22,804 nt of DNA from the IMG/VR virus record IMGVR_UViG_3300030085_000736, positions 1 to 22,804 of that record, one strand, 5' to 3'. Below the pieces are notes generated by a model. That model was not told the origin of the DNA. It was given only the letters and a program-made list of their open reading frames with translations, and did no database searches. Source of the DNA: a virus. The position numbers and the translations under genes are program-made. Below, one piece after another: positions 1-4,862 of the stretch. Each line of letters opens with the position of its first letter. Within the stretch, counting starts at the first letter, position 1.

Positions 1-146
1 AGAACTGAGTCGCTAAACTCATCAGAATACCTTATCCCCTTCTCCAAGGGATTGTTCAGTCACAATGCGATTTCGCTCGTCAGCGAAAACTTTAAAACTG
101 GTGATGATGTTTCTGTTTCCAAGTACACCATCAAAACTCAGTTTAA

Positions 147-191
147 TTAGGCCGCAAGGGCGTAATCAACAGGCGCAAAGTTATCGTTTGC
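147..191 (-). other. tmRNA proteolysis-tag reading frame, ANDNFAPVDYALAA
   Basis: Resume codon GCA lies at 191-189 and stop TAA at 149-147. The frame encodes 14 residues, ANDNFAPVDYALAA. The AND(N) start and hydrophobic ALAA end are typical of tmRNA tags recognised by ClpXP-type proteases. The bases before the resume codon, ACTGTAAAT, resemble the usual upstream positioning element. The D-Y insertion between APV and ALAA makes the tag a little longer than tags such as ANDNxAPVALAA that I recall from alphaproteobacteria. Confidence 0.93.
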
Positions 192-275
192 ATTTACAGT
201 TTTTGACCTATTACGCAGTCATCCGACAATTCTACTCGCCTCTATCTCCGTCAGTCGAACCTAGTTCGCCCCCAT

Positions 276-325
276 CATAACTACTCTCACGCAGTGATTC
301 ACTATCTCATCTAAGAGTAGTTATG
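276..325 (-). repeat. Inverted repeat in the tmRNA intervening segment
   Basis: The arms CATAACTACTCT and AGAGTAGTTATG (plus-strand positions 276-287 and 314-325) pair perfectly over 12 bp, with a 26-base loop. They lie between the CCA end of the acceptor piece and the 5' end of the coding piece. The folded hairpin would stack on the acceptor stem and hold the two pieces together in the precursor, as expected for a permuted pre-tmRNA that is later cut out. Confidence 0.85.
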
Positions 326-394
326 GTGGAGGCGATGGGTACTGCCCCCATGTCCTGCCCGTTCTTCGATTTGTATCAACAAATTGTGATTCTA

Positions 395-423
395 TTTATA
401 CCAGATTACTCTTCTATTGTCAA
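395..423 (-). promoter_or_regulatory. Sigma70-type promoter for tmRNA, overlapping a T4-late-like TATAAATAG
   Basis: Minus strand: TTGACA (423-418), 17-bp spacer ending CTGG, then TATAAA (400-395). The -35 is a perfect match and the TGG before the -10 gives an extended -10. The -10 lies within TATAAATAG, which also matches the T4 late promoter element. The predicted start near 388 lies just before the acceptor piece. The promoter overlaps the last codons of the thermonuclease-like gene. Confidence 0.75.
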
Positions 424-816
424 GTTTAATTTAGCCCTATTTGCAAGATGTTCTTCTGCAATATCTTCTTTGGACTGTCCATGATATCGAACTGCATGGT
501 GATTATCTACCAAGAGTTGGTTGATGTTATGTTCACCACCATACCAGAGTTCACCCAGAATACGACCAAATTTACCTTTACCATCTTTGAAAGTTTTAAG
601 TGTTAGGTCACCAGCATTAGTCCACTTAGTTAAAAACTCAGTTGCAGCTTTTCCATACACCTTTTCTACTTTGTCAGATGTTCTTGATTCTGGTGTATCA
701 ATACCATACATTCGGATACGTTGTTTTCGCATCCAGACACCAAAACCTAAGTCGATATCCACATCAACTGTGTCTCCATCAACTATTCTAACTATTTTAC
801 ATTTATACTCGTACAT
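406..816 (-). CDS. Staphylococcal-nuclease-like (thermonuclease) protein
   Basis: This 136-residue protein is a single SNase-like domain, a calcium-dependent phosphodiesterase fold acting on DNA or RNA. Visible hallmarks are DGDT at residues 13-16, R35, D40-T41-P42-E43 and R85 in GRILGEL, which match the catalytic Arg/Glu/Arg set and metal-binding Asp of the family. No signal peptide is seen, so it is probably cytoplasmic and may act in host DNA breakdown or nucleotide salvage. Its ATG directly follows the TAA of the upstream exported-protein gene, so the two are probably co-translated. The tmRNA promoter overlaps its 3' end. Confidence 0.85.
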   Translation of the reverse strand: MYEYKCKIVRIVDGDTVDVDIDLGFGVWMRKQRIRMYGIDTPESRTSDKVEKVYGKAATEFLTKWTNAGDLTLKTFKDGKGKFGRILGELWYGGEHNINQLLVDNHHAVRYHGQSKEDIAEEHLANRAKLNLTIEE

Positions 817-1182
817 TTAATGCTCCCATGTGATACTAGTTTTTGTTTTTGGTGGTTCATTAAATCCAAAGTTATTACCACCACCAATAATGCATACTAT
901 CTCTGGACTAATAACTTCCACGACACTAAAGGTTTTAGTTTCAAGATTTACTGCGACAATTACTTGAGTCTTGATAAAGGTTCTGCCATCTGTTGCAGCC
1001 GAAATACCCTCTCCAGTAAACCAAGGTTTTTCATTGAACTTACCGTTAACAATTGTCAACATTTGTTCCATGTTCATACAAGACACTGGTTTCTGTGAAT
1101 TGTAGTTTTGTTTTTCGTGTTCTGCATATGCACTTGTTGTTAGAACAAGTGATAAAACCAATGTGCTAAATAAGTTCCTCAT
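817..1182 (-). CDS. Small exported protein, two-cysteine type, unknown function
   Basis: A 121-residue protein with a clear signal peptide: MRN, a hydrophobic stretch to about residue 18, then SAYA-EH, a good signal peptidase I site. The mature part carries CMNMEQ near residue 35 and a second Cys in the EIVCIIGGG segment, which could form a periplasmic disulfide. I recall similar short exported proteins in marine T4-like phages, without known function. It overlaps the 3' end of the preceding gene and ends directly before the thermonuclease start, so it is part of the operon from the 2.1-kb promoter. Confidence 0.75.
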   Translation of the reverse strand: MRNLFSTLVLSLVLTTSAYAEHEKQNYNSQKPVSCMNMEQMLTIVNGKFNEKPWFTGEGISAATDGRTFIKTQVIVAVNLETKTFSVVEVISPEIVCIIGGGNNFGFNEPPKTKTSITWEH

Positions 1183-1429
1183 TGTTGTTCTTTCTGTGTA
1201 TCTTACCTAATTCATTCATTAGGTTTTGGTCAATGCATTTAAGATTTGTCGGCAGAATAGAACCTTGATACGCTTCTATAGACTTCCCAAAAAGTTTTAG
1301 TTGATTATTCCTTGCAAAAGTCATGCAATCTTCTTTTGTATCAAAAACTAATTCTGGTATCCACAATGGTGTTTCTGGTTGACCAAGACTAAGCTGCTGT
1401 GTCATTACTACTACTATGAACCATTTCAT
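1166..1429 (-). CDS. Small exported or membrane-anchored two-cysteine protein
   Basis: From ATG at 1429 this gives 87 residues beginning MKWFIVVVMTQ, a short hydrophobic leader. The body has FDTKEDCMTFARNN and later NLKCID, the two-cysteine pattern shared with small proteins at 11586, 17856, 18117 and 22306. An earlier start near 1462 would add residues inside the upstream exonuclease frame and put charged residues before the hydrophobic stretch, so 1429 is preferred. It overlaps the exonuclease gene by 41 bases. Function unknown; probably periplasmic. Confidence 0.65.
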   Translation of the reverse strand: MKWFIVVVMTQQLSLGQPETPLWIPELVFDTKEDCMTFARNNQLKLFGKSIEAYQGSILPTNLKCIDQNLMNELGKIHRKNNNEELI

Positions 1430-2096
1430 TTTCTTTTTCCCAATGCTCTGTGAAATCGTCAATGGTTTCTACTAGTAGTGGTAAGTAGTCATGTTTAGTC
1501 TTTACAAATTCTTGAACGATTCCGTCTTCTGTTACAACTAGAATTACAATCTGATTGATTTCAATTCCAGTTCGTTCTTCAAACATTTCTGCGTATGCAG
1601 ATGCCTGAATATAGTAAGACTCATTCCATTCATCATTGCGTTCTTTTGTAGAAGTTTTAAAATCAATGATAGAAGGCACTCCATTGTATTCACCAATGCA
1701 GTCAACTCGCCCTGCTACTTTATATTTATCAGAGTATAGACCACACTCTTGTGCATAGATGTTATCTACTTTTTCTTTGAGTACTGGTCTGATTTGACCA
1801 AAGAGAACATAAGGAAGAAAGTTCTTCTTATGTGTTTCTTCATCAAAATTATTGTTCAGAAAATCCTCACACATATGGTGAACCTTAGTTCCTCTGTGTG
1901 CGGCTGTTCTTGCAACATAATTTGCAACATCATCACCTACTCGTTTTCTCCATTCCATAAGACCTTCCATCTTACGTCTTTGTAAAACTGTAGTGATAGA
2001 GGGGTAAAGTTTCCCCTCTGGAGTTACATAGAATCTTTTGCGATTGACGTTCTTAGTAGAGAGTTCTGGTATCTCTACTGGTTTGTGTGTAAACAT
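1389..2096 (-). CDS. PD-(D/E)XK exonuclease (RecB/Cas4/MGME1-like)
   Basis: This 235-residue protein has the order of motifs of the RecB-family nuclease fold: RGTKVHHMCE around 68-77 (His and Glu), GRVDCIGEY around 129-137 (Asp132), IIDFKTS at 143-149 (Asp145, Lys147) and YYIQASAYA at 161-169 (motif IV Gln and Tyr). Such single-domain exonucleases are common in marine T4-like phages and act on single-stranded or branched DNA in recombination or host DNA degradation. The start is supported by a GAGGA ribosome site and a consensus promoter 28-56 bases upstream. It is first in a four-gene operon with two exported proteins and the thermonuclease-like gene. Confidence 0.85.
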   Translation of the reverse strand: MFTHKPVEIPELSTKNVNRKRFYVTPEGKLYPSITTVLQRRKMEGLMEWRKRVGDDVANYVARTAAHRGTKVHHMCEDFLNNNFDEETHKKNFLPYVLFGQIRPVLKEKVDNIYAQECGLYSDKYKVAGRVDCIGEYNGVPSIIDFKTSTKERNDEWNESYYIQASAYAEMFEERTGIEINQIVILVVTEDGIVQEFVKTKHDYLPLLVETIDDFTEHWEKENEMVHSSSNDTAA

Positions 2097-2123
2097 AATA
2101 TATCCTCACGATTTAATTAATCC

Positions 2124-2152
2124 ATAATACCATAACTCAACACACTTGTCAA
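2124..2152 (-). promoter_or_regulatory. Sigma70-type promoter for the exonuclease operon
   Basis: Minus strand: TTGACA (2152-2147), a 17-bp spacer ending ATGG, and TATTAT (2129-2124). It matches the consensus -35 exactly and has an extended -10 (TGG). It overlaps the stop codon of the endolysin gene, starting a new unit without a visible terminator before it. Confidence 0.8.
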
Positions 2153-2676
2153 GTCAGTTTTAGTGCAGCTTCTGTAGTTTCGTTAACTCTTCTTGTCCAA
2201 CCACGACCAAAAGTTTTGAAGTGTTTTAACTTCTCATAATACTTTTGTCTATCGGCTTGATAAAGTATAACTGTTTTATCAATACCATGTTTCTCAACAT
2301 ATGCATCAATTTTTTTAAGTGAGTTCGGGCCAATGCCACCGTCAACTGCTGTACCAACAATCTTTTGAATCATCTTCGCAGCTCTTCCAGTTCCAGCGTT
2401 CACGCCAAAATCGAAAATGCAAAGTGCAAGCGCTGGGTGAAGGTCATCACCTTTTACTCTATCCCAATATTCAGTTTTGTAGATAGGTGCAACATCTAAG
2501 ACTTCTAAATCTCTCATAGATTTTGGTCTTAGACCGTTTTTCTTACAGTATGCATCATAAACTTTCTTAGTCACGCCTAAGTTAGTTTCGCCGCCTGGGT
2601 CATCTGGATGATTCACATAGCCGCCTTCGTGATGAAGAATCATCTCTAAACAATTTTGATATTCTTTGTTTATCAT
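2149..2676 (-). CDS. Endolysin, GH108-type N-acetylmuramidase with PG-binding C-terminus
   Basis: A 175-residue lysozyme-like protein. The N-terminus carries HHEGGYVNHPDDPGG (residues 15-29); the EGGY Glu17 is the predicted catalytic acid of glycoside hydrolase family 108. ETNLGVTKK and the FDFGVNAG segment are also typical. The C-terminal half (DGGIGPNSL, then QADRQKYYEKL) matches the putative peptidoglycan-binding domain normally joined to GH108. It has no signal sequence, so release would need a holin. Start ATG overlaps the stop of the small basic gene upstream (ATGA). It lies far from the spanin block, an arrangement seen in other T4-like phages. Confidence 0.9.
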   Translation of the reverse strand: MINKEYQNCLEMILHHEGGYVNHPDDPGGETNLGVTKKVYDAYCKKNGLRPKSMRDLEVLDVAPIYKTEYWDRVKGDDLHPALALCIFDFGVNAGTGRAAKMIQKIVGTAVDGGIGPNSLKKIDAYVEKHGIDKTVILYQADRQKYYEKLKHFKTFGRGWTRRVNETTEAALKLT

Positions 2677-2810
2677 TTACCTTGTCCTCTATATTTTTTA
2701 TAACTTCTACGTTTATGTTTATTCATAGTAGAAGTAATAGGTTTCTTTCCCAATGAAGTTCCCTTCTTAGTGGGTTCATGAGTTGAACCAGATGAAAACA
2801 TTTTTGCCAT
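2673..2810 (-). CDS. Small basic protein, 45 residues
   Basis: ATG at 2810 gives a 45-residue, strongly basic protein (MAKMFSSGSTHEP start, MNKHKRRSYKKYRGQGK end). Its start overlaps the PhoH stop (TAATG) and its stop overlaps the endolysin start (ATGA), so it fits exactly into the operon. The Lys/Arg/Tyr-rich tail suggests nucleic acid binding. I recall similar short basic proteins near phoH in marine phages, but no function is known. Confidence 0.75.
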   Translation of the reverse strand: MAKMFSSGSTHEPTKKGTSLGKKPITSTMNKHKRRSYKKYRGQGK

Positions 2811-3514
2811 TATACTTCAACTCCTTTTTTTGTCTTACTGATTAGATAACTTCTTACCAAACCAGACCGAACAATGTCGCCGATATTAAATTCAACAGAT
2901 GCAAACTCTTCCATCTCTGCAATGATATCCATAAATCTAGGCATACCATCTTTGTCTGAATTTTTTACTAAATCCGATTGGAAGAAATCACCAGAGAAAA
3001 TAATCTTACTATCTTGACCTACACGAGTCATGATTGTATCTAACTCATGAAAGTTAAGGTTCTGACACTCATCAACTATAATGATAGAGTTGTCCAACGT
3101 AATACCTCGCAAATATGATGTTGTTAAAAACATGACAGAGCCTTGTGCTTTTAGTCTATCATACAACATTGTAAATGCTTGGTCACTAGGTTGTTCAAAC
3201 ATAAACTGCACCATGTTCTGATATGGAATCTGATACAATGCAGTTTTGTCTTCTTCATCGCCTGGCAAGAAACCGATTTCTCTTGTGGGTACTGCACTAC
3301 GAATTAGATACACGCAATGATATGGTGTACTTGGGTCTAATACTTTCTCAAGTGCAAGGTACAAGGAAATAAAAGTCTTTCCAGTTCCAGCGGCTCCATG
3401 AAGGAATAATTCTTTGTTATCTTTTTTAAATGCCTCAAAGGCAACCTTTTGATTGTCTGTGATTGGTTTAATAGTTACCAAATCATCAATTTTTACATCT
3501 TGTTTTTTCGCCAT
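2810..3514 (-). CDS. phoH: PhoH-like ATPase
   Basis: A 234-residue P-loop ATPase with the PhoH-family layout: Walker A GAAGTGKT at residues 40-47, then IRSAVPTREIGFLPG around 71-85, and Walker B IIIVDECQN at 144-152 followed by a SGDFFQ-type sensor. PhoH is one of the most frequent genes of marine phages; an RNA or DNA helicase-related role has been proposed but its job in infection is not settled. It lies in an operon between an FmdB-like small protein and a small basic protein, linked by TAATG overlaps on both sides. A TATAAATA element sits about 45 bases upstream inside the previous gene. Confidence 0.93.
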   Translation of the reverse strand: MAKKQDVKIDDLVTIKPITDNQKVAFEAFKKDNKELFLHGAAGTGKTFISLYLALEKVLDPSTPYHCVYLIRSAVPTREIGFLPGDEEDKTALYQIPYQNMVQFMFEQPSDQAFTMLYDRLKAQGSVMFLTTSYLRGITLDNSIIIVDECQNLNFHELDTIMTRVGQDSKIIFSGDFFQSDLVKNSDKDGMPRFMDIIAEMEEFASVEFNIGDIVRSGLVRSYLISKTKKGVEV

Positions 3515-3813
3515 TACACATCCTTCAAAATCTTATGTTTTTTCAATACTTGTCTAGTATTTATATCCTTTGTAGACTTCTTACCGTAACGTCTTGCGAA
3601 TGGAGAGCCAGGGTGTGCTTCTGCAATCCTTGACATATTATCTTTCCAACCACCATCATTTCTAATACCACCAACATCACTTACAATAGATACAAGTGAC
3701 GGCAGTTGTACAATATGGTCATTCTCTTTTAAGAACTCCTCTTTACCAGAGATAGAAAAAAACTCTTCCCATTCTTCTCCAGTGTCATTATTTTTAAAAC
3801 TATAAGTTGGCAT
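3514..3813 (-). CDS. FmdB-like small protein, unknown function
   Basis: From ATG at 3813 this gives 99 residues starting MPTYSFKNNDTGEEWEE. The MPTYxFKN-xTGExW opening resembles phage proteins often labelled FmdB/regulatory-like, but the paired cysteines of a true FmdB zinc ribbon are absent. The later part, HIVQLPSLVSIVSDVGG and the C-terminal GSPFARRYGKKS, recurs in marine phages as far as I recall. A TTG start 6 bases upstream is possible but the MPTY start fits the family better. TAATG overlap with phoH follows. Confidence 0.7.
   Translation of the reverse strand: MPTYSFKNNDTGEEWEEFFSISGKEEFLKENDHIVQLPSLVSIVSDVGGIRNDGGWKDNMSRIAEAHPGSPFARRYGKKSTKDINTRQVLKKHKILKDV
3557..3565 (-). promoter_or_regulatory. 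T4-late-like element TATAAATAC upstream of phoH
   Basis: Minus strand TATAAATAC (3565-3557) matches the T4 late promoter core TATAAATA and lies 43 bases before the phoH start, inside the preceding gene. There is no good -35 box. In an AT-rich genome a chance match is possible. Confidence 0.3.
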
Positions 3814-4081
3814 TTTCAATTTTCTCTTTTAATTTTTGTATCTCTTCAGCCTGTTCTTTGATACGAATCATAAGTTGATGATTTTGTTTTTGCATCTCTG
3901 CAACTTCTCTCATCCACATATCTGCTGGAGATATGTATGGTTTTTCTGTCCATGCACTTAATTGACCATCTTTGGTGATATCGTCCATAGGGTCATCTTG
4001 TTCTTCCATTTTTATCTGCCTTAGTTTCCAGAGCATCCAATCATAGTATCGTTCTGGTTCTGGGTCATGTTCTTGTACCAT
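3800..4081 (-). CDS. Small coiled-coil protein, unknown function
   Basis: From ATG at 4081 this gives 93 residues, MVQEHDPEPERYYDWMLWK at the start, followed by a charged middle and a long C-terminal helix (EVAEMQKQNHQLMIRIKEQ onwards) with heptad spacing typical of a coiled coil. An AGAGG site about 10 bases upstream supports this start; the alternative TTG at 4105 has none. It overlaps the end of the upstream gene by 61 bases and the next gene by 14. It is probably a dimerising phage accessory protein; no family function is recognised. Confidence 0.7.
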   Translation of the reverse strand: MVQEHDPEPERYYDWMLWKLRQIKMEEQDDPMDDITKDGQLSAWTEKPYISPADMWMREVAEMQKQNHQLMIRIKEQAEEIQKLKEKIENANL

Positions 4082-4614
4082 ATTGGTGTACCTCTTTCCT
4101 TCCAAGTTGCAAAACTTCTTTTTGCAGTTACATAAAAATTACGATACGCTTGTACTGAATCACCTTTTACCATACACTCTGGATATTGTTTCATGGCCTG
4201 TGGAACTGGTGTTGTCTTTCCAAGAGTAGGAATATTCTTAGGTGGTTCTCGTAACAACCACCAATAATCTTTTGCACCATGTTCTTTACCATACCTATAT
4301 GTATATTCGTCACAAATCAGTCTATAATATGTATACATTAACATATAGTTCTCACGACACTCACGCAACCAAATATTAGTTGGGTGATTGACATGACCAG
4401 CAAGATACAGATGTTTGTTCATCTTTCGGTCTGGATGTTTCCACCGTTTAATTCTTGCACCACTTTTGGTTCTATCAATATACATTTCACCATCAAGAAT
4501 TCTGTGTGCAGTACATAACATCTGTTTGTACTCTGTAGGCATCTTGACTATATGTTTGTCACAATGATACTCAATAGATTGCCATGGGTCTTCATCTAAG
4601 TAGAAAAAGTTCAT
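4021..4614 (-). CDS. Conserved phage protein of about 200 residues, possible Pyr_excise-like family
   Basis: A 197-residue protein starting MNFFYLDEDPWQSIEYHCDK, with CDKHIVKMPTEYKQMLCTAHR, HVNHPTNIWLRE, and RLICDEYTYRYGKEHG. This pattern (KHxxKM, then NHPxxIWxRE, then EYTxRYGK) recurs in many T4-like marine phages and is normally left unnamed. The early-His and conserved Trp/Arg pattern brings to mind pyrimidine-dimer glycosylase-related (Pyr_excise) proteins, but I cannot confirm this by eye. Start ATG overlaps the stop of the upstream gene (4 bases). Confidence 0.75.
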   Translation of the reverse strand: MNFFYLDEDPWQSIEYHCDKHIVKMPTEYKQMLCTAHRILDGEMYIDRTKSGARIKRWKHPDRKMNKHLYLAGHVNHPTNIWLRECRENYMLMYTYYRLICDEYTYRYGKEHGAKDYWWLLREPPKNIPTLGKTTPVPQAMKQYPECMVKGDSVQAYRNFYVTAKRSFATWKERGTPIWYKNMTQNQNDTMIGCSGN

Positions 4615-4862
4615 AATGATTTTATCCTATCTAAAGTTTCATATACTGTTTGTACGCCTGCATAGCCGACTACATCATCAGTAATAGGAGTATCGTAACA
4701 CAAATCTCCCTTGGAGTCAAGTACTGCAATCTCATACAATCCTCTATCGCCCCCATAAGATACATCATGAGAAACTACAGATGCACCATACCCATTTTCA
4801 AATTCATATACATATCCAACTCCATTGTGAATATGGTATTTTCTTTTATAACCTTCTAACAT
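4611..4862 (-). CDS. Small hypothetical protein
   Basis: Start ATG at 4862 overlaps the stop of the SleB-like gene (TAATG), giving 83 residues beginning MLEGYKRKYHIHNG. A start 12 bases upstream is possible but lies in the previous gene. The sequence is Gly/Tyr rich (GYVYEFENGYGASVVSHD) with probable beta strands and a short C-terminal helix, resembling small phage proteins that I recall but cannot name. No cysteine pair, signal peptide or membrane segment. Function unknown. Confidence 0.7.
   Translation of the reverse strand: MLEGYKRKYHIHNGVGYVYEFENGYGASVVSHDVSYGGDRGLYEIAVLDSKGDLCYDTPITDDVVGYAGVQTVYETLDRIKSL

Follow-up and report, generated by a model that had tools for sequence, protein, structure and literature searches.

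A permuted two-piece tmRNA gene beside a manA-type regulatory RNA in a Melnitz-like marine phage contig

The window, by which we mean the whole 22,804-nucleotide stretch of virus record IMGVR_UViG_3300030085_000736 that was analyzed, carries near its left end a complete, circularly permuted, two-piece gene for tmRNA, the RNA by which bacteria free stuck ribosomes. We conclude that this gene very probably is a functional, phage-owned tmRNA of a Melnitz/pelagimyophage-type T4-like marine phage. The tmRNA is already known in kind, as SsrA is annotated at the corresponding position in the phages Melnitz and Mosig. The ribonucleotide reductase encoded in the window is 77% identical to that of Methylophilales phage Melnitz, 53% of the first 8 kb of the window aligns to the Melnitz genome at 69%, and genes for PhoH, a GH108 lysozyme, a T4-type RNase H, a PD-(D/E)XK exonuclease and an SNase lie on the same strand.

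Structure of the tmRNA gene and its place in the contig

Two Rfam covariance models and ARAGORN recognized the gene, which occupies about 102-388 of the minus strand. RF04321 (tmRNA_permuted) matched positions 147-387 with 117.5 bits (gathering score 47, E 1e-22), and RF01849 (alpha_tmRNA) matched positions 102-427 with 114 bits (gathering score 50, E 8.7e-31), scores that are far above chance; ARAGORN called a permuted tmRNA with the tag ANDNFAPVDYALAA. An earlier sequence-only reading had proposed a permuted, two-piece, alphaproteobacterial-type phage tmRNA at 1-388 and had suggested the alpha_tmRNA model and ARAGORN as the check. Both accept the gene and bear out its type, while the interval is narrowed, as positions 1-88 belong to a manA-type RNA. 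The ARAGORN 3' end at position 56 was set aside since it would extend the gene into the manA RNA, and the Rfam end at 102 was adopted. The features at this end of the window are as follows:

1-88, minus strand: manA cis-regulatory RNA of which the contig end leaves the 5' part, about 14 nt past the tmRNA 3' end (RF01745, 29.6 bits, E 2.2e-6)
102-273, minus strand: coding (mRNA-like) piece, beginning GGGGGCGAACTAGGTTCGAC (from the RF01849 match at 102-427; 3' end approximate)
147-191, minus strand: tag reading frame ANDNFAPVDYALAA followed by TAA, with resume codon GCA at 191-189 (ARAGORN; the RF04321 match ends at 147)
274-323, minus strand: intervening segment of 50 nt, predicted to be removed by tRNA-type processing (sequence; permuted form by Rfam and ARAGORN)
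324-388, minus strand: acceptor (tRNA-like 3') piece with T-arm and encoded CCA end (RF04321 and RF01849; exact 32-nt T-arm/acceptor block)
395-423, minus strand: sigma70-type promoter of the tmRNA, TTGACA (423-418), 17-nt spacer, TATAAA (400-395) (11/12 consensus match)
406-816, minus strand: SNase-family endonuclease gene just upstream of the tmRNA, its stop adjoining the tmRNA promoter (PF00565, E 5e-14; phrog_452)
1389-2096, minus strand: PD-(D/E)XK exonuclease, a syntenic upstream marker (phrog_298, E 4e-68)

All the parts named in the earlier reading, namely the acceptor piece on the CCA side, the GGGGGCG start, the 7-bp stem, the 12-bp hairpin and the tag, are present on the minus strand. 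The acceptor piece, which terminates in CGCCTCCACCA with its 3' end at +324, is located 5' of the coding piece, whose 5' end is at +273 with GGGGGCG as its first bases. The two pieces are joined by pairing of the 7-bp acceptor stem, GGGGGCG/CGCCTCC, which contains the G3:U70 wobble of alanine identity, and the CCA is encoded. In the intervening segment, 276-287 pairs with 314-325 to make the 12-bp hairpin, overlapping the encoded CCA end. The tag comprises 14 amino acids in an open frame with resume codon and stop, and has a hydrophobic (A)LAA end. Upstream, the promoter sits 92 nt ahead of the acceptor CTCCACCA; from this sigma70-like promoter at 423-395, the transcript is therefore expected to start near 388, the end given in the earlier reading. 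Matches of 11 of the 12 promoter bases were found at 78 of 117 viral tmRNA loci as against 5 of 2,340 shuffled upstream regions, and at most of these loci the best site is 90-100 nt upstream of the acceptor.

A gene so close to the contig end would fit an assembly chimera, with a bacterial fragment attached at the left end, a concern that the earlier reading had itself raised. However, contig L028, which is 98.9% identical over window positions 1-4859, extends about 3.2 kb past the left end of the window and runs from the tmRNA into a manA RNA, two small ORFs, a 2OG-Fe(II) oxygenase, the gp33 late-transcription coactivator (PF16805) and the gp59 helicase loader. Since L028 reads beyond the left end, a chimera is excluded for practical purposes. 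The synteny of the locus with the isolate genomes of Melnitz and Mosig and with at least 50 other contigs also speaks against it. Among the relatives that carry the acceptor block and have enough sequence, gp33 lies downstream in 53/55 and the exonuclease upstream in 51/52, counts that, like our other viral conservation counts, take in near-duplicates and so measure conservation within the group rather than independent events. The window gene occupies the position of a Melnitz-like ssrA locus, with the exonuclease at 1389-2096 upstream and gp33 downstream in the near-identical L028.

Conservation and descent of the viral tmRNAs

tmRNA genes are rare in isolate phage genomes, as the earlier reading had stated: 402 of 18,146 carry one, and the same survey counted 53 two-piece tmRNAs, 50 of them from marine or aquatic phages (PMC9004378). 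The SsrA of Melnitz EXVC044M (MZ577097), described as a two-piece tmRNA (PMC9004378), is like the window gene of permuted alpha type, is 82% identical in DNA over 82% of the query, and shares the 32-nt acceptor block, the promoter and the position upstream of the late-transcription coactivator. It differs in its tag, ANDNYVPVDYALAA, which is unlike the window tag at 2 positions, and in its longer intervening segment. In the Pelagibacter phages Mosig EXVC030M (MT647606), in which SsrA is annotated, and HTVC008M (KC465899), the exonuclease and the gp33 homologue flank a permuted tmRNA, as in the group of the window, but the tRNA-like cores are much more diverged and the tags are GEDNFALAA and ANFNEYALAA, respectively. 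The permuted tmRNA of HTVC008M has no annotation in its GenBank record; we located it at 1824-2165 (minus strand) of L332, with its core at about 145161-145370 of KC465899.1, with 90.6 bits and the tag ANFNEYALAA.

Structural conservation was examined in a sample of 125 viral permuted tmRNAs; such genes, of which a pattern scan gave at least 120, are more numerous than those sampled. Acceptor pairs 1-3, including G3:U70, are invariant in 125/125. Compensatory changes occur at acceptor pairs 5 and 6 and at T-stem pairs 1-4, and T-stem pairs 1 and 2 show four pair types and no mismatch in any of the 125. The acceptor stem is likewise paired and covarying across the 125. With an invariant G3:U70 and T-stem pairs 1 and 2 that vary but are always paired, the tRNA-like part is therefore under selection for structure and for alanine charging. 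The 14-aa tags found in 68 distinct viral tmRNAs have constant ends, ANDN....(Y/F)A(L/I)AA, around a variable middle, and the middle positions differ even where the tRNA-like cores of the phages share 94% identity. These observations also bear on whether the gene could be a decayed relic, that is, a passenger ssrA fragment such as imprecise prophage excision might leave behind, with its function lost. ssrA is a frequent prophage attachment site (PMC9004378), which would provide a route for such a fragment. We consider a relic very improbable, as the gene is complete with compensatory changes in its stems, an invariant G:U pair and an open tag frame, and the promoter and synteny are kept across divergent phages. 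Thus phage-encoded trans-translation genes are not the curiosity of one isolate but are fixed and syntenic in many uncultivated marine T4-like phages, where the tmRNA structure and the tag are under selection.

Odd tags were seen in the tmRNAs of L070, L208 and L144 (AMKKANANDNFAPEMRLAA, AMNKANANDNFAPEMRLAA and ANFMFASAPLRLAA), with extended or changed tag starts. Permuted tmRNAs of the ANDNFA type also occur, without the 32-nt block, in many more viral contigs outside the group of the window, such as L055, L094, L097 and L112.

The sequence-only reading had the phage taking ssrA from an alphaproteobacterial host. The alphaproteobacterial type holds; the capture from a host fits the comparisons less well. 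The exact 32-nt acceptor block is present in 94 viral contigs and absent from all 84,980 bacterial and archaeal species genomes searched, in which a looser T-arm pattern matched 118 genome contigs, chiefly of SAR11 and other alphaproteobacteria. In a tree with 44 viral rows and 71 rows of cellular alphaproteobacteria, viral and cellular tmRNAs split at 100/100 and SAR11 forms its own clade at 100/100; the tree rests on 151 columns, and its cellular sample was partly picked by the T-arm pattern. The core of the window tmRNA is 94-100% identical to its nearest viral counterparts and 81.9% identical to the nearest cellular one, from SAR11. The chromosomal ssrA of SAR11 (Pelagibacterales) is likewise of permuted alpha type with G3:U70, but it has a T-stem of GGACGTGGG/CCCAC and tags of 9 aa (ANESYALAA, ANDKFALAA, ANQKFALAA), and the 14-aa phage tag is unlike all SAR11 tags seen.

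We read this pattern to mean that the gene was acquired long ago from a source of alphaproteobacterial type and has since been inherited among viruses. A recent capture of the ssrA of the current host, SAR11 or another alphaproteobacterium, would agree with the match to the alpha_tmRNA model, with SAR11 being the nearest cellular group, and with the reported alphaproteobacterial/SAR11 affinity, for which the Melnitz paper argues on the side of SAR11 (PMC9004378). We regard it as improbable given the separate, fully supported viral and SAR11 clades, the distribution of the acceptor block and the difference in tag length. When the phage clade is constrained to group with SAR11, the cost is 66 log units with a p-AU of 0.062, a borderline rejection only; given this value and the short alignment, the origin may lie on the SAR11 side, though apparently not as a recent event. 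Of the hosts of the nearest sister phages, SAR11 is alphaproteobacterial and OM43 is not. The gene is better termed an old viral lineage than a recent capture from SAR11 or the host, which corrects the published and inferred view.

Proposed role during infection

A role in ribosome rescue and tagging, proposed earlier for Melnitz (PMC9004378), is plausible for the window gene as well. smpB (PF01668) was not found in the complete genomes of Melnitz, HTVC008M and Mosig or in seven long contigs; therefore, host SmpB is most likely used. In the proposed course of events, host sigma70 RNA polymerase would transcribe the tmRNA early from its own promoter, along with the leader of the gp33 operon, and host tRNA-processing enzymes would cut out the intervening 50 nt, leaving a two-piece RNA that host AlaRS would charge via G3:U70. 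The charged tmRNA and host SmpB would then enter ribosomes stalled on broken messages. Such messages may be abundant, as the phage would degrade host nucleic acids and nucleases would cut both host and phage messages. The tmRNA would append A-ANDNFAPVDYALAA, whose end carries a ClpXP-type LAA signal, so that host ClpXP could be used, and the outcome would be the recycling of ribosomes and the clearing of fragments during takeover.

Alternatively, the tmRNA might act mainly as a decoy or regulator that competes with host tmRNA or redirects the proteolytic fate of products through its own tag. A tag unlike those of SAR11, with a middle that varies among phages with a 94% identical tRNA-like core, is what such a role might produce; however, the ClpXP-type LAA end and the ANDN start are retained, and there is no sign of interference. 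We consider this alternative unlikely and favor rescue and tagging.

Regulatory RNAs between the tmRNA and gp33

The manA RNA that follows the tmRNA lacks its 3' part at the contig end of the window, where its 29.6 bits fall below the gathering score of 55.2 for RF01745. The complete copy in L028 (3108-3284, minus strand) reaches 60.8 bits and passes this threshold. Complete manA RNAs above the gathering score were found 3' of the tmRNA in L028, L194 (6896-7104, minus strand), L213, L204, L083, L156, L166, L181 and L211. In Melnitz, the place that manA RNA takes in the lineage of the window is held by a glutamine riboswitch (52.8 bits), and glutamine riboswitches likewise lie 3' of the tmRNA in L125, L164, L196, L199 and L202; the glutamine core motif was found at 12 loci in total, including these six. 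An Rfam search of window positions 1-450 at a relaxed threshold gave no glutamine riboswitch and found the manA RNA instead. A glutamine riboswitch after the tmRNA is not a trait of the whole Melnitz-like group.

Both classes of regulatory RNA are located after the tmRNA and before gp33, with a distance of 24 nt to the gp33 reading frame in L194. From this arrangement, the manA or glutamine RNA is more likely to control the downstream gp33 operon than the upstream ssrA, contrary to the wording of the Melnitz paper (PMC9004378). A further reading joins the two elements: an ancient, virus-only tmRNA lineage with a fast-changing tag would sit in the leader of the gp33 operon beside a ligand-sensing RNA of exchangeable type (manA or glutamine), and rescue and tagging, together with the early-to-late switch, would be tied to host metabolism. 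We put this forward tentatively, as a possibility with the odds against it.

manA RNAs are known from cyanophages (PMC9964418), and we found no report in the searchable literature of a manA RNA beside a tmRNA. The new points are the virus-only tmRNA lineage and the exchangeable regulatory RNA, with two classes in one slot before gp33. Phages of the Melnitz group have been said to use a riboswitch or a tmRNA, rarely both (PMC9004378). This statement is corrected here, as the tmRNA and a cis-regulatory RNA are often adjacent: at least 20 loci in our sample, near-duplicates among them, have the two next to each other.
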